Source of the DNA: Deltaproteobacteria bacterium
GTDB lineage: Bacteria > Desulfobacterota > BSN033 > UBA1163
Direction of reading: 5' to 3'
NCBI GenBank assembly: GCA_020059605.1
Contig: JAGVBT010000136.1
Location: 1-63,158, forward strand
DNA length: 63,158 bases
Part shown: positions 44,119 to 58,373 of the stretch, piece after piece
Layout of the letters: each line of letters starts with the position of its first letter
Position numbering within the stretch: position 1 is the stretch's first letter
Position numbers and translations under genes: made by a program
Notes under the pieces: generated by a model
What the model was told of the DNA's origin: nothing
Seen by the model: only the letters and a program-made list of their open reading frames with translations
Databases searched by the model: none

Positions 44119-44164
44119 TCAAGGTAAGAAAAAGAGAATTGAGCTGAATTAGGTGGAGAATTCG

Positions 44165-45652
44165 ATGAAAGACATAAAGGATACGGGTCTCCTTCAGGAT
44201 GAACCCCTTATCTTCGAGCAGGGCGGGGAAGGGAGAAAAGGATATTCCTTGCCGCGATGGGATGTTGAACAAGTCAAGGAGGAAGAACGAATCCCCTCCC
44301 ACCTTTTGCGGAAAGAGCTGGAAGGATTCCCGCAACTCAGTGAGGTGGAGGTCGTGCGTCATTATACTCGTCTTTCCCAATGGAACTTCGGCGTCGATAG
44401 CGGTTTTTATCCATTGGGTTCCTGCACGATGAAATACAACCCCAAGATGAATGAGGAAGTCGCCAGGATGAGAGGGTTTGCACATCTTCATCCCTATCAA
44501 CCAGAGAGTCTCGTCCAGGGGATTCTTAAATTAATGCATGGACTTGAAGGGTATCTTGCAGAGATCACAGGGATGGACCGGGTCACACTTCAGCCCGCAG
44601 CCGGGGCCCATGGCGAGCTGACCGGAATGATGATGATCAGGGCCGCTCTTCAGGCCCGTGGCGAAAAGAGGAAGAAGGTGCTGGTGCCAGACACCGCCCA
44701 CGGGACGAACTGCTCGACCTCGGCCGTTGCCTCCTATCAGATGGTCGAGATCAAATCCAACGAAAAAGGAGTGATCCCACCCGGGAAAGTGGCCGAGCTG
44801 ATGAATGAAGAGGTGTCGGCCATCATGGTCACCCATCCGAATACCCTCGGGCTCTTTGAGGAACATCTGGCGGAGATCGCTGAAATTGTTCACCGCAAAG
44901 GAGGGTTTGTCTACTGCGATGGAGCCAACCTCAACGCCCTGATGGGAATTGCAAGGCTGGGCAATCTCGGAGTGGACATGGTTCACCTCAACCTCCATAA
45001 AACCTTCTCTACGCCTCATGGCGGAGGAGGCCCCGGCTCCGGGCCCCTGGCTGTAAAGGAAGAGCTTATCCCCTTTCTTCCGGTTCCGGTCATTGAGAAG
45101 GAAGGCGAGACTTTCCGGTTCGATTACAATCGGCCCAAAAGCATCGGCAGGATGAAAGCATTCTACGGAAACTTCGGAGTCCTTCTCAAGGCCTATGCTT
45201 ATATCCTCTCCATGGGAGCGGAAGGGCTCAAGAGGGCGAGTGAGATGGCAGTGCTCAATGCCAATTACCTGATGACGGGATTGAAGGGTTCTTACTATCT
45301 TCCCTACGACCGGCCCTGCATGCATGAGTGTGTCTTCACCGACCGCTACCAGGAAAAAGATCATGTCTCAACCCTCGATATTGCAAAGAGATTAATCGAT
45401 TATGGATTTCATCCGCCGACGATCTACTTCCCCCTGGTCGTCAAGGGCGCCCTGATGATGGAGCCTACGGAAACGGAGAGCAAAGAGGGGCTCGATCGGT
45501 TCATCGAGACGATGATCATCATTGCGAAGGAGGCGGAGGAGAATTCGGACCTTCTCCGGCAGGCGCCCCGGAAGGTGAAGGTGAGGCGGCTCGACGAGGT
45601 TTTGGCGGCGAGAAAACCGAAATTGAAATGGAACAGGGATCAATCCCAATAA
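44165..45652 (+). CDS. gcvPB: Glycine dehydrogenase (decarboxylating) subunit 2
   Basis: This 495-residue PLP subunit completes the P protein. The Schiff-base lysine is K279 in LNLHKTFSTPHGGGGPG. GSCTMKYNPK and PAAGAHGELTGMM are typical. The ATG at 44165 is set by AGGTGGAG; the in-frame GTG at 44153 would lie inside that site. With GcvPA it decarboxylates glycine onto the lipoyl arm of GcvH. The reverse direction, glycine synthesis, is also possible in anaerobes. Confidence 0.93.
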   Translation: MKDIKDTGLLQDEPLIFEQGGEGRKGYSLPRWDVEQVKEEERIPSHLLRKELEGFPQLSEVEVVRHYTRLSQWNFGVDSGFYPLGSCTMKYNPKMNEEVARMRGFAHLHPYQPESLVQGILKLMHGLEGYLAEITGMDRVTLQPAAGAHGELTGMMMIRAALQARGEKRKKVLVPDTAHGTNCSTSAVASYQMVEIKSNEKGVIPPGKVAELMNEEVSAIMVTHPNTLGLFEEHLAEIAEIVHRKGGFVYCDGANLNALMGIARLGNLGVDMVHLNLHKTFSTPHGGGGPGSGPLAVKEELIPFLPVPVIEKEGETFRFDYNRPKSIGRMKAFYGNFGVLLKAYAYILSMGAEGLKRASEMAVLNANYLMTGLKGSYYLPYDRPCMHECVFTDRYQEKDHVSTLDIAKRLIDYGFHPPTIYFPLVVKGALMMEPTETESKEGLDRFIETMIIIAKEAEENSDLLRQAPRKVKVRRLDEVLAARKPKLKWNRDQSQ

Positions 45653-45654
45653 CC

Positions 45655-45812
45655 AAATCCCAAACTCCAAATAAATTCCAATCACCAAATAACCAATAAC
45701 CTAAACCACCCTCTCCCCTGGGTGGGAGAGGGATGGGGTGAGGGGATTATAAGATTTTGGTCATTGGAATTTGGTAATTATTTGGTTATTGGTACTTGGA
45801 TATTGGTTATTC
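45655..45812. repeat. Large imperfect inverted repeat between gcvPB and lipB
   Basis: The left arm repeats CCAATAACCAAAT-like units and the right arm has the complement (ATTTGGTTATTGG). They flank a GC-rich centre with CCCTCTCCC / GGGAGAGGG. It would fold into a long hairpin. Non-coding. Confidence 0.7.
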
Positions 45813-45834
45813 TACCGATTCAAACTTGGATCGT

Positions 45835-46509
45835 ATGGACAGAAAAGGATACGTTATAGACCTCGGCACAGTGGATTACGCTAAGGCCTGGGACCTTCAA
45901 CATCATCTCTGGTCCATGAGGGTGGAGGGGAGGATCCCCGATCTTCTTCTTATCCTCGAGCATCCCCATGTGATCACACTTGGAAGGCGCGGAAACCGGT
46001 CCTATCTGCTCATCTCCCCGGATGAGCTAAAAGCAATGAAAATCCCCCTTTTTCATGTGGAGAGGGGAGGCGATGTGACCTATCACGGTCCGGGGCAGAT
46101 GGTGGTCTATCCCATCCTCAACCTGAAGGATTACGGATATCGTCTCATTCACTACATTGGCCAACTCGAGGAGGTGATCCTCTCCGTCCTGAAAGATTTC
46201 GGGATCGGAGGGAGCAGGGACTCCTCCAACCGCGGGGTCTGGGCAGAGGGAGATAAGATCGCCTCGATCGGCGTGGCGATCAAACGCTGGACCTCCTTTC
46301 ATGGATTTGCATTAAACCATGCAACAGACTTAAGATATTTTGAACTCATCCATCCCTGCGGTCTGGAGGGGATAAGGATGACTTCCATGGAGAAACTGCT
46401 TGGGAAGAAGGTTTCAAGAGAGCCATTAACCGAGAGGGTGTGTTTTCATTTTAAAGAAATTTTTCAAAGGGATTGGGAGGTAAAGGAATTAAAGGAAGTT
46501 GAAAGATAA
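45835..46509 (+). CDS. lipB: Octanoyl-[acyl-carrier-protein]:protein N-octanoyltransferase
   Basis: This 224-residue enzyme transfers octanoate from ACP to GcvH or other lipoyl domains. Motifs are LEHPHVITLGRRG, GGDVTYHGPGQMVVYPI, the lysine in GDKIASIGVAIKRW and the thioester cysteine C175 in HPCGLEG. The start at 45835 is the first ATG giving the normal N-terminus (MDRKGYVIDLG), although no strong RBS is visible. It works with lipA at 48161. Confidence 0.9.
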   Translation: MDRKGYVIDLGTVDYAKAWDLQHHLWSMRVEGRIPDLLLILEHPHVITLGRRGNRSYLLISPDELKAMKIPLFHVERGGDVTYHGPGQMVVYPILNLKDYGYRLIHYIGQLEEVILSVLKDFGIGGSRDSSNRGVWAEGDKIASIGVAIKRWTSFHGFALNHATDLRYFELIHPCGLEGIRMTSMEKLLGKKVSREPLTERVCFHFKEIFQRDWEVKELKEVER

Positions 46510-46611
46510 ATCCGGTGGCACAGGCTTCCAGCCTGTAGCCTCAGGTTTGAGGGTTTAAATCAAAAAAGGTTCTTACGGTTTTTGTGTGGATTCTTTCCTT
46601 TTTAGACTTCC

Positions 46612-46642
46612 ACCCCTCCCCTTAATCTAAGGGGAGGCTGGG
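46612..46642. repeat. Palindrome upstream of lpdA
   Basis: CCTCCCCTTA and TAAGGGGAGG form a 10-bp inverted repeat with a short centre in the lipB-lpdA gap. Neither side has a convincing T tract. The role is unknown. Confidence 0.6.
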
Positions 46643-46691
46643 TGGGGTTATTATAGAGGAGGCGGAAGTAGTATTGTTTACAAAATAACCT

Positions 46692-48098
46692 ATGATTCCT
46701 AAAAAGATTGTAATCATCGGCGGTGGTCCTGGTGGTTATGTGGCAGCCATCCGGGCCGCCCAATTGGGGGCAAAACCCATCCTCGTTGAGAAAGATCGTG
46801 TCGGTGGGACCTGTCTTAATCAAGGCTGTATTCCCACGAAAGCCCTTCTTCACGATGCCGCCATTCTCCGCTCTCTGAAGGGCTCTCCTGTTTTCCGGGC
46901 CTTTACCTGCGAAGCCTCCGGACTTCTGGAACCCATGATGGGTCGCAAGAATAAAGTCGTTGAAGAACTGGTTCATGGCGTGGAGATTTTGCTTGAATCC
47001 CACCGGGTGACGATAAAAAAAGGAAGGGCGGACCTCTTCAGCCCGAATCAAGTGATTCTCCTCGACGGAGAAGAGCGGAAAGAGGTTCTTGAAGCCGATG
47101 CGATCATCCTTGCTCCAGGTTCAACATCAAAATCCATTCCCAATATTGCCCCCGATGGCAAAAGGATCATCACCAGCGAAGAAGCGCTGGAGATGACAAG
47201 GGTTCCCCGGGAGTTGGTGATCATCGGAGGAGGATATATCGGCATGGAGCTCGCTACACTCTTCAATACCCTCGGTTCAAAGGTGACGATTGTGGAGGTT
47301 CTGGAAAATATTCTTTCTGGCCTTGAGGGAGAGTTGATCCGGAATCTCAGGCGTTTTCTGGAGAGGGACGGGATAAAAATTTTTACCCAATCCTCAATGG
47401 AGGAGGTCCGATACGGCGAGGATGAATTGAAACTTACGGTTAAAACCCCGCAGGGAATCCAGGAAATCCATGCTGAAAAATTACTGATGGCTGTGGGAAG
47501 GGGGCCTTTCCTGGATCTCAGTTTTCCAAAGGCCGGCATTGAGACCTCTCCCAAAGGAATCAAAGTCAATCCCCGCATGGAGACGACCTGTCCCAATATT
47601 TATGCGATCGGGGATGCGACCGGGGGAATCATGCTCGCCCATGTGGCCATGGAGCAGGGAGTGGTGGCCGCAGAGAATGCGATGGGAATGGACCAGGAGA
47701 TGAAAGACAAACTGATTCCCCTTTGCATCTTCACCCATCCCGAGGTTGCCTCCATCGGAGCCACTGAGAAAGAAGCAAAAGCAAAAGAAGAGATAAAAAT
47801 TGGCCGGTTTCCGTTTAGGTCGAACCCCAAGGCCGTAATTTCAGGGGAGACCGATGGTCTGATGAAGGTGATTGCCAGCCGTGAGAATAATGAGATCCTG
47901 GGAATTCATATCATCGGACCCGAGGCAAGCGTTCTCATCTCCATTGGATCCACGATGATTGGGAGTAAATTGAAAGATTTTACCCGGTTCATTCAGGCCC
48001 ATCCAACGATCCCGGAGGCGTTAAAAGAGGCATGTCTCGATGTGGATGGGTTGGCGATTCATTTGCCAAAACCGCTACGTCCTCCAAAAAGCGCATAG
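46692..48098 (+). CDS. lpdA: Dihydrolipoyl dehydrogenase (L protein)
   Basis: This 468-residue flavoprotein reoxidises the dihydrolipoyl arm of GcvH. It has the FAD motif GGGPGGYVAAIRAAQLG, the redox disulfide C41/C46 in GGTCLNQGCIPTKALL, the NAD motif VIIGGGYIGMELATLFN, a second FAD motif YAIGDATG and the C-terminal dimer-interface histidine in QAHPTIPEAL. It lies in the gcv-lip cluster, so it should serve the glycine cleavage system. Confidence 0.93.
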   Translation: MIPKKIVIIGGGPGGYVAAIRAAQLGAKPILVEKDRVGGTCLNQGCIPTKALLHDAAILRSLKGSPVFRAFTCEASGLLEPMMGRKNKVVEELVHGVEILLESHRVTIKKGRADLFSPNQVILLDGEERKEVLEADAIILAPGSTSKSIPNIAPDGKRIITSEEALEMTRVPRELVIIGGGYIGMELATLFNTLGSKVTIVEVLENILSGLEGELIRNLRRFLERDGIKIFTQSSMEEVRYGEDELKLTVKTPQGIQEIHAEKLLMAVGRGPFLDLSFPKAGIETSPKGIKVNPRMETTCPNIYAIGDATGGIMLAHVAMEQGVVAAENAMGMDQEMKDKLIPLCIFTHPEVASIGATEKEAKAKEEIKIGRFPFRSNPKAVISGETDGLMKVIASRENNEILGIHIIGPEASVLISIGSTMIGSKLKDFTRFIQAHPTIPEALKEACLDVDGLAIHLPKPLRPPKSA

Positions 48099-48160
48099 AG
48101 CATAGCGCATAGCACATAGCAAAAAAAGATCATTGCAAATTGATAATTGGTAATTGAAAA

Positions 48161-49024
48161 TTGAAGAATTTAAAAAAACCTCCCTGGCTTAAAAAACGAA
48201 TTCCTCCTCTCCAGGATCTGCAAAAAGTAAAGACGATCCTGGATAAGGGAGGTCTTCATACTGTTTGCGAGGAGGCTCGTTGCCCCAACCTCGGAGAGTG
48301 TTTTTCACAAGGGACGGCAACCTTTTTAATCCTGGGGGAAGTTTGTACGAGGAATTGCGGGTTCTGTGCTGTGGAACACGGAATACCTGTCCTGCCCTAC
48401 GAAACAGAATCAGAAAAAGTGGCCCAGGCCGTAAGGAAGATGGGACTCCAATACGTCGTCATTACCTCCGTCACCCGAGACGATCTCCCCGATGGCGGGG
48501 CCTCCCATTTTGCCAAGACGATCCAAGCCATTCGTAAACAGGATCAAGGGATAAAGATCGAGGTGCTAATTCCTGATTTCAAAGGTGATCACTCTTCTTT
48601 GGGGAAAGTCCTCGAAGCCTCACCGGATGTCCTGAATCATAATGTTGAAACCATTCAACGGCTTTATTCAGAGGTCCGACCGCAAGCCAATTATAAAAGA
48701 TCTCTTAATCTCCTGAAAAAGTCAAAGGAACTTCATCCCAACATCCACACCAAATCAGGTTTCATGCTCGGGCTTGGAGAAACTCATCAGGGGATTATCG
48801 AACTCATGGAAGGCCTCAGGGAAGCAGAGTGTGATCTCTTAACCATCGGCCAGTACCTGCAGCCCCGTCGCGACCGTCTGCCGGTCGAAAAATATATCTC
48901 CCCGGAAGAGTTCGAAGAGTATCAAAAGATAGGCATGGAGATGGGCTTTAAAGCAGTCGCCTCCGCCCCCTTCGTCCGCAGTTCCTTTCATGCCTCGGAG
49001 ATGTTTGCGGACACTTCAAATTGA
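48161..49024 (+). CDS. lipA: Lipoyl synthase
   Basis: This 287-residue radical-SAM enzyme inserts sulfur into octanoyl groups. The auxiliary cluster cysteines are C36, C41 and C47 (CEEARCPNLGEC). The SAM cluster is C62, C66 and C69 (CTRNCGFC). The C-terminal RSSFHASEMF carries the conserved Arg-Ser. Translation appears to start at TTG 48161, as no ATG gives the N-terminal helix. The preceding gap holds a short GCATAG-type tandem repeat (48092-48120). Confidence 0.92.
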   Translation: MKNLKKPPWLKKRIPPLQDLQKVKTILDKGGLHTVCEEARCPNLGECFSQGTATFLILGEVCTRNCGFCAVEHGIPVLPYETESEKVAQAVRKMGLQYVVITSVTRDDLPDGGASHFAKTIQAIRKQDQGIKIEVLIPDFKGDHSSLGKVLEASPDVLNHNVETIQRLYSEVRPQANYKRSLNLLKKSKELHPNIHTKSGFMLGLGETHQGIIELMEGLREAECDLLTIGQYLQPRRDRLPVEKYISPEEFEEYQKIGMEMGFKAVASAPFVRSSFHASEMFADTSN

Positions 49025-51162: not shown

Positions 51163-51336
51163 AAGAAACTTCTTCTCTCGGGCCTTTCAGCGGGATGATC
51201 TACAATCCACCCGGCTATTTCGATAGCCCAATAACGGGAAGGAGCGATGGGCTAAGCCTCCGGTATCTTGATGTCCTTAGGAAACCATTCCGAGAATCTA
51301 TCGCATTTTTATGTTTTCTTTGTTATGATTTTATGC

Positions 51337-51573
51337 ATGAGAACGACCATCGAAATTACGGATGAGCTTCTCCGTCGGGCAAAGGAAAAAGCAACGGCAG
51401 AGGGAACCGCTTTGCGCCAAGTGGTTGAGACAGCACTTCGATTCTACCTGGCCAAACCTCGCCGTGCTGCCGGCTATAAGCTACAGTGGCGAACAGAGCG
51501 TGGGCGAATGCTTCCGGGGGTATGTCTCGATGACCGGGATACCCTTTTTGATCTAATGAACGGCCGGACATGA
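51337..51573 (+). CDS. VapB-like antitoxin
   Basis: This 78-residue protein opens with RTTIEITDELLRRAKEKATAEG, a ribbon-helix-helix DNA-binding start typical of type II antitoxins paired with PIN toxins. The stop overlaps the vapC start by four bases. An earlier in-frame ATG (51268) adds a non-conserved segment and is rejected. Confidence 0.75.
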   Translation: MRTTIEITDELLRRAKEKATAEGTALRQVVETALRFYLAKPRRAAGYKLQWRTERGRMLPGVCLDDRDTLFDLMNGRT

Positions 51574-52034
51574 TCGCCATTGATACCAATATTCTCGTGT
51601 ATGCTCGGCGCGAGGAAACTCCTTTCCACAAAGAAGCCAAGGAATTGCTGAGAAACCTGGCGGAAGGAGACAGTCCTTGTGCTCTGCCTTGGCCATGCAT
51701 TTACGAATTTCTTCGAGTCATCACCCACCCCCGGGTTTTCGACCCGCCAACACAACTGGAAGTAGCTCTTGAAGATCTCGAATCGCTAACGGAGGCCCCT
51801 TCTCTTGTTTTACTGGGTGAAGGACATGGACATTTCAATCATCTGTGCCATATGGTCAGGTCCGGACAAACCATAGGGAATTTGGCCCATGATGCTCATA
51901 TTGCCGCTCTGATCCGTGAGCATGGGGTCGACGAATTAGGACCACCGAAAAGGACTTTGCACGGTTCAGGGGTCTTCATATTCGAAATCCATTCCTCCGA
52001 TAGCGCGCTGCTACCATCGAGGGTTTTAAGTTAG
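51570..52034 (+). pseudogene. VapC-like PIN toxin, 3' frameshift
   Basis: This is a PIN-domain RNase with AIDTNILVYA (first Asp), YEFLRVI (Glu) and LAHDAHIAAL (Asp). After GVDEL the frame departs from the family (GPPKRTLHG). Inserting one base after 51938 restores W-TTEKDFARFRGLHIRNPFLR, the normal VapC ending, with a stop at 52001. The toxin therefore appears inactivated by a one-base deletion, or the sequence has an error there. The antitoxin upstream is intact. Confidence 0.75.
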
Positions 52035-52111
52035 TTTCCAATTAAGACGATTAGAACTTTAATATAAAATTTTAGCTCACTAACATTACGAAACTTCAGA
52101 GGAGGGAGACC

Positions 52112-52819
52112 ATGAGCAATCCCAACATGCTTGACAGAACGTTTCATGTGATCATGAAGCGTATGGTAGAAACCGGACAGGCACCCTTTTATACGGAACT
52201 TGCCGCCGTACTCGGTCTTTCCGTTGAAGAAGGTCGGAAGATCCTGCACGACCTTTTCTCCTCGGGAATCCCCGGATGGTTGTACCCTCGAACCGATCTC
52301 ATCGTCTCATTCGCACCCTTTAACAGCCTTCCGACCCAATACCGGATCACCATCGATGGTCAGCAGAAATGGTTCGGCCAGTGAGCCTTTGAATCGCTGG
52401 CGGTCTGCTGGCTATTCCCTGGCAAGACACTGACGGTGGATTTCCCTTGCCTGGATTGTGGCAAGCCTCTTAGGGTGGTCATCCGTGACGGGAAGGTTTT
52501 AAATGATGAAGCTTTAGGATACATGGCCTATGTGGCCGTGCCGTTCTGGAAATGGTTTGAAGACCCGGGCTATGCCTGAAGCACCATGAATCTCTTCCGG
52601 TCGGAAGAGCACATCCGTAACTGGAAATCCTTTGTCGAAGGCACCGACGAGGGCATCCTGTCACTGTCCGACCTGCTTAAGCTGTTCTCCGGATCTTACT
52701 TTAGGCGGCGACTAGATGAGGACTACGTTTCCCATATGCACGAATATGTTCGCGAGATGGTCCAGACCATGAAAGAAATCGGCAAAACTGGCCCATTTTG
52801 GAAAAAGCCGAAAACGTGA
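52112..52819 (+). CDS. merB: MerB-like alkylmercury lyase homologue with two in-frame UGA (selenocysteine) codons
   Basis: One reading frame of 235 codons is interrupted only by TGA at 52382 (codon 91) and TGA at 52577 (codon 156). The whole frame aligns with organomercurial lyase. An N-terminal winged helix (FYTELAAVLGLSVEEGRKIL) leads to WFGQ-U-AFESLAVC at the MerB Cys96 segment (WCALDTL). GKTLTVDFPCLDCGKPL matches the GRTARV segment. GYA-U-STMNLFRSEEH matches the Cys159 segment (FCCHVHFFAS). Both catalytic cysteines are thus UGA, and the MerB Asp99 position is Glu. Each UGA is followed by a hairpin with a GG-starting loop. RBS GGAGGGAG precedes the ATG. Selenocysteine is inferred. Two nonsense mutations are far less likely. 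Confidence 0.85.
52385..52417 (+). promoter_or_regulatory. Bacterial SECIS-like hairpin 1
   Basis: This follows the first UGA. GAAU pairs with AUUC, then after a C/U mismatch GCUGGC pairs with GCUGGC (two G-U pairs), closing a GGUCU loop at 52402-52406. The loop GG lies 17 bases after the UGA, inside the known range for bacterial SECIS elements that bind SelB. Confidence 0.75.
52580..52609 (+). promoter_or_regulatory. Bacterial SECIS-like hairpin 2
   Basis: This follows the second UGA. CUCUUCC pairs perfectly with GGAAGAG (52592-52598 with 52603-52609) around the loop GGUC. The loop GG lies 19 bases after the UGA. It is independent in sequence from hairpin 1 but has the same architecture. 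Confidence 0.8.
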
Positions 52820-55658: not shown

Positions 55659-58373
55659 ATGCCAAAAGATTTAAAACGGACGGGACTCTTTTCCTGGCAT
55701 AAGGAGAATGGGGCGCAGATGGTGGAGTTTGCCGGATGGGAGATGCCGGTCTCCTATCCCAAAGGCATCCTTGAGGAGCACCTGGCGACCCGGAAATACG
55801 GAGGCCTCTTCGATATCTCCCACATGGGGCGTTTCTTGATTTATGGGGAAGAAACCATCCCTTTTTTACAGTATGTCCTGACGAACAATGTCTTAGCCCT
55901 GGAACACGGCATGGCCCAGTATACGCTGATCCAGAATGACTGGGGAGGGGCGATCGATGATGCCTATCTCTACCGGTTGGATGAAGGAAATCTTCCCTCC
56001 GAATCAAGATACCTTCTCGTGGTCAATGCTGCCAATAAGGAGAATGACTGGAATTGGTTGATGGACCATAAGAAACGGTTCAGGGGCCTGATCATCGAAG
56101 ATAATAGCGACGAGATGGGGATGATCGCCCTCCAGGGCCCCGTGACCAAGAGGGTGTTGGAAAAGATTGTCATTGAAAGCCATTCAAAGCTTCCGGATCC
56201 CTGGAGGAATCGTTTAAGGGTTTGCGAGATCGAGGGAGTCCGAGTCGCTGTTACCATCTCAAGGACCGGATATACGGGAGAGCCTATCTGCTTCGAACTC
56301 TTTTCCGAAAGGGAAAAGATGAGGATGATCTGGGAGGCGATCCTTGCGGTTGGAGAGAAAGAAGGGATTGCCCCCGTTGGCTTAGGTGCAAGGGATACCC
56401 TGAGGACAGAGGGGGGCCTTCCCCTGTATGGTCATGAATTGGGGGTCGATCAAGAGGGGAAGGAGATACCCATCTATGCGGTTTATTCAGCCGGATTGGC
56501 AGTCAGTTTTTCTCCATTGAAGGGGGATTTTATCGGAAGGGAAGCCCTGAGGCGACAATTTGAAGAATTGAGAGCGAGGGCGGATCGAGTTCCCCCACCG
56601 CCCAGAGAGAAGCAGACGATTCCCAGGCGGGTTGTTCCCGTTGCGATGTTTGGAAGTCAGGGCGGACAGGCGATTGCAAGGCAAGGCTATGAAGTCTTTG
56701 TGAACGGGAAACCGGCAGGCCATGTGACAAGCGGAACGATGGTCCCATACTGGATTTTTTCTGACGAAGGAATTTTGTCAAAACCGACTGACGAAAGAGG
56801 GATGAGGGCCATTGCTTTAGCCTATATCGATTCCGATTTGGAGGAGGGACAGAAGGTCGAGATTCAGCAGAGGGGGAAGACCATTGAAGGGACGATTGTG
56901 GAAAAGCATTTATCCGGGGAGGCTCCTCCCTATGCCCGGCCCATCCTGTTTCAAGAAAGTATTCCAAAAAGGCGTGAGCCGACCAGGGATTTGAAAGATT
57001 CAGCCCGAAGGCTGATCGAGCGGGCCATACAGAATACCCATTGGAGACAAAGAGAGGCCATTAACCTCATCCCTTCGGAACAGACCCCTTCCACACTGGT
57101 GAGGCTCCTCACCATCATGGATCCATCCCACCGGTATGCGGAGCACCGAGTCGTCAAAGCCCTTGGAGAGAAGGATATTTTCTATTACCAGGGAACAAAG
57201 TTGATTGAAGAGGTGGAGGCTTTTCTCGGAGATGAGATGCGAGGCTATCTGGGGTGTTCCGAAGTGGAGGCGAGGGTGATCAGTGGGCAGATGGCCAACA
57301 CGGTTGTCTTTAGCGGCCTGGTGGATTACCTGAACCGGCTTGACCGGAAAAGCGAACCCCGGAGGATCAGAAAAGTGATGAACCATCATCTCGGAAGGGG
57401 AGGGCATCTCAGCGCACAACCCATGGGCGCGCTTAGAGATTTTATAGCCATTGACCCCTTGACGGAGAGGCCATCTGTTGTGCCTTTTCCTGTGATGAAA
57501 GACGACCTCTATCAGATCGATCTCTCAAGGGCAGAGGAACTTTTGGAAATTCACAAACCTGAGTTGATCATCCTGGGCAAGAGCATGGTTCTTTACAGGG
57601 AGCCCCTGAAGGAGATTGCCCAAATGGCATCCGGGATGAAACCAAGGCCGATCATCCATTATGACATGGCCCATGTGCTGGGATTGATCGGGCCTTATTT
57701 CCAGGAACCATTCCAGGAGGGAGCCGATATCGTCACCGGCTCCACCCATAAGACGTTTTTCGGTCCACAGAGAGGGGTTATTGGAAGCAATATGGAAGAG
57801 GGGACAGAATATGAGGATCTCTGGGAGGCTATTGTCCGCAGGGTATTCCCGGGGAGCGTGAGCAATCATCATCTGGGGACGCTTCTGGGACTGCTCATGG
57901 CGGCCTATGAGATGAACGTCTTTAAATTGGATTATCAGAAAGCGGTCATCTCCAATGCGAAGGCCTTTGCCCGCTCCCTTAAGGATCAGGGGTTAATGGT
58001 GGAGGGAGACCCGGAGAAAGGTTACACGGAAACCCATCAGGTCATCGTCAGGGTGGGTTATGGAAAGGGACCGGTGGTGGCTGAAAGATTGGAAGAGAAC
58101 AACATCGTCGTCAACTATCAAGCCGCACCGGACGATGAAGCTTTCACCGCAGCCAGTTGTTTAAGGATTGGAGTCCAGGAGATGACACGCTTCGGAATGA
58201 AGGGAGAGGACTTCGGACAATTGGCGGAGTATATGAGCGAGGTCATCCTTCATGACCGGTCCGTGGGAAAAGTAATTTCTCAGTTCCGAAAGAAATTCGC
58301 GGAGATGAAATATTGTTTGCCTGAAACCGAAGCGGCCTCACTGGTCAGTGGACTCATTGAAGCAATCCGGTGA
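55659..58373 (+). CDS. Fusion of aminomethyltransferase (GcvT) and serine hydroxymethyltransferase (GlyA)
   Basis: This 904-residue two-enzyme protein has GcvT in residues 1 to about 430: GWEMPVSYPKGILEEH, YGGLFDISHMGRF, a DD pair in GGAIDDAYLYRL, RTGYTGEPICFELF, LGARDTLRTEGGLPLYGHEL. From about residue 436 a full SHMT-like domain follows: NLIPSEQTPS, GSTHKTFFGPQRGV with the PLP lysine K698, and HVLG near the cofactor. It would couple release of methylene-tetrahydrofolate by the T protein to its use (or formation) by SHMT on glycine/serine. The SHMT half is divergent and about 50 residues longer than usual. RBS AGGAGCAGGGG. No separate gcvT or glyA is present in the window. Confidence 0.9.
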   Translation: MPKDLKRTGLFSWHKENGAQMVEFAGWEMPVSYPKGILEEHLATRKYGGLFDISHMGRFLIYGEETIPFLQYVLTNNVLALEHGMAQYTLIQNDWGGAIDDAYLYRLDEGNLPSESRYLLVVNAANKENDWNWLMDHKKRFRGLIIEDNSDEMGMIALQGPVTKRVLEKIVIESHSKLPDPWRNRLRVCEIEGVRVAVTISRTGYTGEPICFELFSEREKMRMIWEAILAVGEKEGIAPVGLGARDTLRTEGGLPLYGHELGVDQEGKEIPIYAVYSAGLAVSFSPLKGDFIGREALRRQFEELRARADRVPPPPREKQTIPRRVVPVAMFGSQGGQAIARQGYEVFVNGKPAGHVTSGTMVPYWIFSDEGILSKPTDERGMRAIALAYIDSDLEEGQKVEIQQRGKTIEGTIVEKHLSGEAPPYARPILFQESIPKRREPTRDLKDSARRLIERAIQNTHWRQREAINLIPSEQTPSTLVRLLTIMDPSHRYAEHRVVKALGEKDIFYYQGTKLIEEVEAFLGDEMRGYLGCSEVEARVISGQMANTVVFSGLVDYLNRLDRKSEPRRIRKVMNHHLGRGGHLSAQPMGALRDFIAIDPLTERPSVVPFPVMKDDLYQIDLSRAEELLEIHKPELIILGKSMVLYREPLKEIAQMASGMKPRPIIHYDMAHVLGLIGPYFQEPFQEGADIVTGSTHKTFFGPQRGVIGSNMEEGTEYEDLWEAIVRRVFPGSVSNHHLGTLLGLLMAAYEMNVFKLDYQKAVISNAKAFARSLKDQGLMVEGDPEKGYTETHQVIVRVGYGKGPVVAERLEENNIVVNYQAAPDDEAFTAASCLRIGVQEMTRFGMKGEDFGQLAEYMSEVILHDRSVGKVISQFRKKFAEMKYCLPETEAASLVSGLIEAIR

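Follow-up and report, generated by a model that had tools for sequence, protein, structure and literature searches.

The DNA analysed here, referred to as the window, is a stretch of 63,158 nt from a Deltaproteobacteria bacterium (GCA_020059605.1, contig JAGVBT010000136.1, forward strand 1–63,158). It contains a gene related to merB in which codons 91 and 156 are both UGA (Table 1). Only UGA interrupts the frame; UAA and UAG are absent. Read with translation table 11, the same region yields separate ORFs of 90 and 77 amino acids. The read-through product is matched by Pfam MerB (PF03243) over residues 72–191 (61.5 bits, E 9.9e-17, gathering cut-off 27). In phmmer comparisons with 5c17 and 3f2g, codons 91 and 156 align to two MerB cysteines. 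We take these to be Cys96 and Cys159 in the numbering of R831b MerB.

Table 1. Coordinates of the gene and its associated signals in the window
Feature	Position	Strand	Basis
Predicted double-Sec MerB-superfamily gene	52112..52819	+	235 codons plus UGA stop; read-through translation
UGA codon 91, putative Sec at the MerB Cys96 position	52382..52384	+	Alignment; UGA 83/86, TGC 3/86
Codon 94, Glu at the MerB Asp99 (proton donor) position	52391..52393	+	Glu 85/86, Asp 1/86
Candidate SECIS hairpin 1, loop GGUCU 52402–52406	52396..52412	+	Window fold, frozen codons 95–99, stem pairing
UGA codon 156, putative Sec at the MerB Cys159 position	52577..52579	+	UGA 86/86 distinct genes
Candidate SECIS hairpin 2, loop GGUC 52599–52602	52592..52609	+	Window fold, shuffle test, frozen codons 161–164, covariation
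Third UGA, taken as stop	52817..52819	+	Close homologues terminate here with TAA, TAG or TGA
AGGAGG 5' of the ATG, resembling a ribosome binding site	52100..52105	+	Sequence only (function putative)

We modelled the protein with AlphaFold2, using a 61-member alignment and Cys in place of selenocysteine (Sec). The model had a mean pLDDT of 94.0 and a pTM of 0.89. A Foldseek search of the PDB returned 11 chains at E ≤ 0.001, all of them MerB, and the next match had an E value of 0.32. All 61 family members match Pfam MerB. The protein is predicted, from this model, to have the MerB fold, with a winged helix and core. A first-pass annotation of this DNA had proposed a MerB homologue in a frame broken solely by UGA at codons 91 and 156, with both UGAs on Cys96 and Cys159. 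Read-through of the frame, the Pfam score, the phmmer alignments and a fold search with no significant match other than MerB all agree with that proposal, the residue numbers being those of R831b MerB.

Just 5' of the double-UGA gene is a PIN-domain gene (51570–52034, over the Pfam cut-off), itself preceded by a VapB-like antitoxin gene that scores below the cut-off. The pair spans 51268–52034. By eye, the segments 44153–49024 and 55659–58373 hold glycine cleavage and lipoate-related genes and a 904-aa ORF resembling a GcvT–GlyA fusion.

Conservation of the two UGA codons

Across 99 genomes, comprising the window's own and relatives, we found 13 full-length copies of the gene, the window's included. 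Each has exactly two TGA codons in the matched stretch. The same was true of 26/26 full-length copies, again including the window's, in 395 genomes of the phylum, where 25 genomes carry the family (E ≤ 1e-20). Four of these 26 matches also span a TAA or TAG, located at the end of the gene. Broken or partial matches in genomes G015, G040 and G393 have one TGA or none per piece. Among 72,556 plasmid records there was no match to the family.

A scan of named genomes identified 256 confirmed relatives, and loci were analysed for the best 80. The search patterns require conserved stretches of the window's family, and the remaining 176 of the 256 are outside the analysis. By record title, the best 80 come from Syntrophaceae, Desulfobacterales, Desulfomonile, Desulfarculus, Nitrospirae, Nitrospinae, Tectomicrobia, Poribacteria, Lambdaproteobacteria, Chloroflexi, Dehalococcoidia and, once, Acidimicrobiia. 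The 105 genes extracted reduce to 86 distinct sequences, including the window's. Loci L077 and L103 were left out, the best frame being a piece without the motifs, and the broken or partial copies L034, L035, L044, L058 and L060 are not among the 86.

UGA occupies both columns in 83 of the 86 distinct genes. The other three (L122, L132 and L134) have TGC at the first column and UGA at the second. No gene of the 86 has a residue other than Sec or Cys at either catalytic column, and the more distant MerB relatives L036, L037, L038, L039 and L045 have Cys at both. Selenoproteins are usually recognised by single columns at which Sec and Cys replace one another. Throughout the 86 genes UGA is confined to the Cys columns, except for one more in L140 that is probably its stop. 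Values of dN/dS were 0.05–0.31 before, between and after the UGAs (8 pairs, only where dS was unsaturated). Judged from these codon comparisons, purifying selection is acting on all three segments, also downstream of both UGAs.

Other MerB proteins in the phylum were also surveyed. Pfam MerB matches 59 places in 49/395 genomes; 35 places contain two TGA codons, seven contain one, 16 contain none and one has a TAA. Two of the seven places with one TGA are broken copies of the window's family. The 35 double-TGA places are the 26 of the window's family plus nine of a second group, here called subfamily B and not known to be named (L186–L194, in genomes G071, G067, G131, G097, G392, G322, G108, G260 and G355). 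Its motif is AAUA.D.........F.Q, then F U ...VFF.SE. Single-Sec forms, with Cys then Sec, are L041, L160, L164, L165 and L195. The near-identical sisters L195 (G363) and L171 (G329), from another subfamily, differ by Sec versus Cys at the second catalytic position. L164 (G315), L157 (G279) and L158 (G317) have Cys at the first position; the second is Sec in L164 and Cys in the other two.

We built a tree from 59 of 120 unique rows, hand-picked, by a quick method without bootstrap; its root and long branches are uncertain. The window's family forms one clade (SH-aLRT 100). With that uncertainty, the well-supported branches of this sequence tree require double Sec to have been gained or lost at least twice.

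Recoding signals and selenocysteine machinery

Each UGA is apparently followed by a SECIS-like hairpin, to judge from comparative evidence that is strong at the second site and weaker at the first. The loop and distance of both hairpins appear to resemble those of the E. coli fdhF SECIS. We scored excess synonymous identity at 166 codon columns of the 86 genes. Eleven of the top 12 fall within codons 95–99 or 157–165, the sole exception being codon 23. Codons 161–164 are invariant among genes carrying the majority residue. GGTC is found at the loop position in 66/86 genes at site 1 and 85/86 at site 2. The genes with Cys at site 1 differ in this respect; L122 and L132 keep GGTC there and L134 has lost it.

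Stem pairing was compared with controls in which one side of the stem was slid. At site 1 the stem is paired in 99.6% of cells (83 genes) versus 12–60% in the controls. At site 2 the figures are 98.8% (85 genes plus nine of subfamily B) versus 45–63%. Base changes on both sides of the stem number three at site 1 (0–1 in slid controls) and 35 at site 2 (0–5). When synonymous codons were shuffled across the 86 genes, folding at site 2 was clearly better than expected (mean z -1.86), whereas site 1 gave a weak signal, only slightly better (mean z -0.49). Also counting against hairpin 1, the RNAalifold consensus there is another structure, and the hairpin forms in 7/14 of the single folds shown. 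Taken on its own, the window's sequence at site 2 is no more stably folded than its shuffled versions (z about -0.7), which counts against hairpin 2. Of the 2509 TGAs in the window, 30 are followed by a GGT loop closed by a 6-bp stem. Hence, the hairpins are not decisive without their conservation.

The window's genome encodes selA, selB and selD, the last of these (L019, contig C150:37026–37952) with one in-frame TGA. We did not find selC in this assembly, which is 93.7% complete; all 11 matches to RF01852 are other tRNAs according to ARAGORN, and no tRNA-Sec lies in the stretches around selA, selB and selD. ARAGORN did detect tRNA-Sec in four of five relatives having the gene (G003, G008, G012 and G293, not G365). 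All 25 family genomes have selA, but this co-occurrence is uninformative because selA is already present in 359/395 genomes overall.

These results bear on the checks suggested by the first-pass annotation, and none of the three conditions it gave for refutation was fulfilled. It asked whether homologues have Cys or Sec at both columns, and this holds for 86/86 distinct genes. That the UGAs are not sequencing errors is upheld by their recurrence in many independent genomes, a comparison of genomes and not of reads. It suggested a SECIS search, and SECIS-like hairpins were found 3' of both UGAs, with less support at the first from the shuffle test and RNAalifold. Of the four genes it listed, selA, selB and selD are present and selC was not found in this assembly. 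Its central claim, that both positions are Sec, is supported by the recurrent UGAs, the exchange of Cys and Sec, the hairpins and the signs of selection; the lyase activity and substrate it named are only inferred. We regard it as nearly certain, without protein data, that the gene encodes a MerB-superfamily selenoprotein with Sec at both metal-binding positions.

Association with HgcA and possible functions

At E ≤ 1e-50, HgcA is found in 118 of the 395 phylum genomes. It is present in 20/25 genomes with the window's family and 98/370 others (odds ratio 11.1, p 1.2e-7). With a curated cut-off the counts are 18/25 and 95/370 (p 4e-6). The association remained when stratified by taxonomic family (12 families, 96 genomes; odds ratio 8.5, p 0.002, permutation 0.0006). 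For this test genomes were assigned by hand, 16 unplaced genomes were left out, and genome size and completeness were not covariates. Two observations count against the link. The window's own taxonomic family has no excess of HgcA (3/6 versus 3/7), and 5/25 family genomes have no HgcA match. Genomes with PF03243 but lacking a double-Sec copy have HgcA in 8/20 cases (p 0.32). For subfamily B the count is 6/9 (p 0.02). This is no independent support because four of the nine also carry the window's family; among the five that do not, only G260 and G355 have HgcA.

In the window's genome, an hgcA gene with the motif NVWCAAGK adjoins an hgcB-like ferredoxin gene with CMECGA, the product ending Cys-Cys (contig C121, L202:6312–7701). 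Both motifs are those used for hgcAB in the accessible part of PMC12997803. The genome is predicted, from these genes, to be that of a mercury methylator. The methylation genes are not linked to the double-UGA gene. None of the 80 named loci (the best 80 of 256 relatives) contains hgcA, and neither linked mer or hgc genes nor conserved neighbours were seen. The commonest neighbour cluster is in only 7/80 loci, at +1 in four (L082, L087, L088 and L089), and we rejected the neighbourhood as a functional clue since this is too thin. By eye, the double-UGA gene in those four loci is followed by an Fe-S protein gene and then, in three, one for an FAD oxidase-like protein. MerA is over the cut-off in 2/25 family genomes. 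The best MerA match in the window's genome, at 46704–48038 of the window, looks by eye like lipoamide dehydrogenase, judging by its neighbours.

On the best reading, the gene encodes a di-selenocysteine organomercurial lyase whose substrate is probably methylmercury. We give this a probability of roughly 0.7; catalysis and substrate are inferred and there is no biochemical or peptide evidence. Taken by itself, function as a carbon–metal lyase is probable, by analogy with MerB. Methylmercury as the main substrate is inferred from co-occurrence and only somewhat favoured. Each UGA would be decoded as Sec via its own downstream hairpin, for which the comparative evidence is strong and protein data are lacking. 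By analogy with MerB, R-Hg+ would be captured by a pair of selenolates standing where MerB has Cys96 and Cys159, the leaving carbon would be protonated by Glu94 in the role of Asp99, and Hg(II) would stay bound between the selenolates. The role inferred from co-occurrence would be demethylation of methylmercury in anaerobes that often methylate via HgcAB and mostly lack MerA. How Hg(II) would leave without MerA is unexplained; thiols, sulfide or selenide might take it over, but this is a guess.

Asp99 is replaced by Glu94 in the window's protein, which counts against the reading above. It is one reason to consider that the protein is a di-Sec lyase acting on some other organometal or an organometalloid, such as an organotin or organolead compound or an alkylated arsenic or selenium species, in line with the SAO proposal described below, the HgcA link then reflecting shared anoxic habitats. 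In MerB variants Ser at this position alters metal preference (PMC8261052, in the portion available), the related single-Sec protein SaoL is described as an organometallic lyase (PMC13188914, likewise in part), and mer genes were not found alongside. We consider this unlikely, though it is the likeliest of the alternatives, as the HgcA association persists within taxonomic families and both Hg-binding positions are kept.

The same replacement would suit a protein that does not catalyse at all. Hg is held more tightly by selenols than by thiols, and product release would be slow because of this. The di-selenolate site could be a trap that holds Hg(II) or methylmercury tightly, as a sink or carrier, and the scarcity of MerA, the usual acceptor (2/25 family genomes), fits such a role. 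This seems improbable when position 94 is acidic in 86/86 genes (85 Glu, 1 Asp), the entire MerB core is conserved and subfamily B retains Asp99. Finally, while two in-frame stops in a metagenome-assembled contig with no selC found could suggest a pseudogene, sequencing error or reassigned code instead of Sec, this is rejected on the recurrence of both UGAs in 83/86 distinct genes, whose record titles name several phyla, the frozen hairpins and purifying selection downstream, and the restriction of UGA to the Cys columns (bar the probable stop of L140) and the presence of selA, selB and selD also speak against it.

The di-selenocysteine organomercurial lyase remains the preferred reading. It addresses the open question of what genes carry out methylmercury demethylation in anoxic sediment when there is no mer operon. 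PMC12997803, as far as its text was available, speaks of mer-independent pathways, and the available part of PMC7319479 refers to genes that await discovery. If the enzyme is active, it is a demethylase that gene-based views of methylmercury turnover overlook, and mercury–selenium antagonism acquires an enzymatic component. The family raises a chemical question as well, namely the effect on C-Hg cleavage of changing both thiolates to selenolates.

A broader proposal is tentative and, in our estimate, falls a little short of even odds. The family would be a widespread, overlooked di-selenocysteine organomercurial lyase, serving as a mer-independent methylmercury demethylase of anaerobes, with double Sec having arisen in at least two MerB lineages. 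It would have been overlooked because UGA splits the gene and because surveys demand Cys96, Asp99 and Cys159. HgcAB methylators would often carry their own selenium-dependent demethylase and, therefore, net methylmercury would depend on selenium supply. Ordinary gene finding would probably miss family members. A survey that screened MerB by Cys96, Asp99, Cys159 and Cys117 reported that no MerB-only genome codes for HgcAB (PMC8261052, from the part accessible). The family fails this screen by construction, and 20/25 of its hosts in the phylum sample have HgcA.

Comparison with SaoL, subfamily B and canonical MerB

The first-pass annotation knew of no earlier description of a MerB with Sec at both positions, and we found none either. 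Double-Sec MerB is absent from the 119 selenoprotein families and subfamilies inventoried in PMC13188914 and from PMC9312934, so far as the text of each was available. It is also absent from NCBIfam and from the literature searched, the coverage of which is incomplete. What appears to be new is Sec at both MerB positions; the single-Sec relative SaoL is already known.

SaoL (NF040728) is listed, in the portion of PMC13188914 available, as a selenoprotein whose single Sec lies in a CU motif; it is described as the MerB-like lyase of a Sec-assisted organometallic (SAO) system. Both it and the window's protein are MerB-superfamily selenoproteins of anaerobes. The window's protein differs in having two Sec and no CU motif. 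Membership of SaoL was rejected at 30.3 bits against a cut-off of 140. The best SaoL-model E value among the 61 family members is 1.2e-12, and the family scores far below the cut-off. A protein from the same phylum (L196:236–913, genome G144), with Cys then Sec, does pass (175 versus 140 bits); G144 also has HgcA. In the tree, the clade of the window's family is apart from L160, which is the same gene as L196.

Like the window's family, subfamily B has the Pfam MerB domain and UGA at each of the two positions, the second followed by a GGUC hairpin in 9/9 members. It differs in its low identity (23% over 184 columns, one comparison), in keeping Asp99 and in forming a separate clade (SH-aLRT 99).

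Membership of the canonical MerB equivalog was likewise rejected (25.8 bits against an NCBIfam cut-off of 193). In canonical MerB, Cys96, Asp99 and Cys159 are essential and strictly conserved (PMC8261052, available in part). The window's protein has Sec, Glu and Sec where this signature stands, shares about 20% identity with MerB and was not seen with a mer operon around the gene. What it keeps of MerB (PF03243; for example 3f0o, 3f2f and 5c17) is the domain, the fold and both metal-binding positions.
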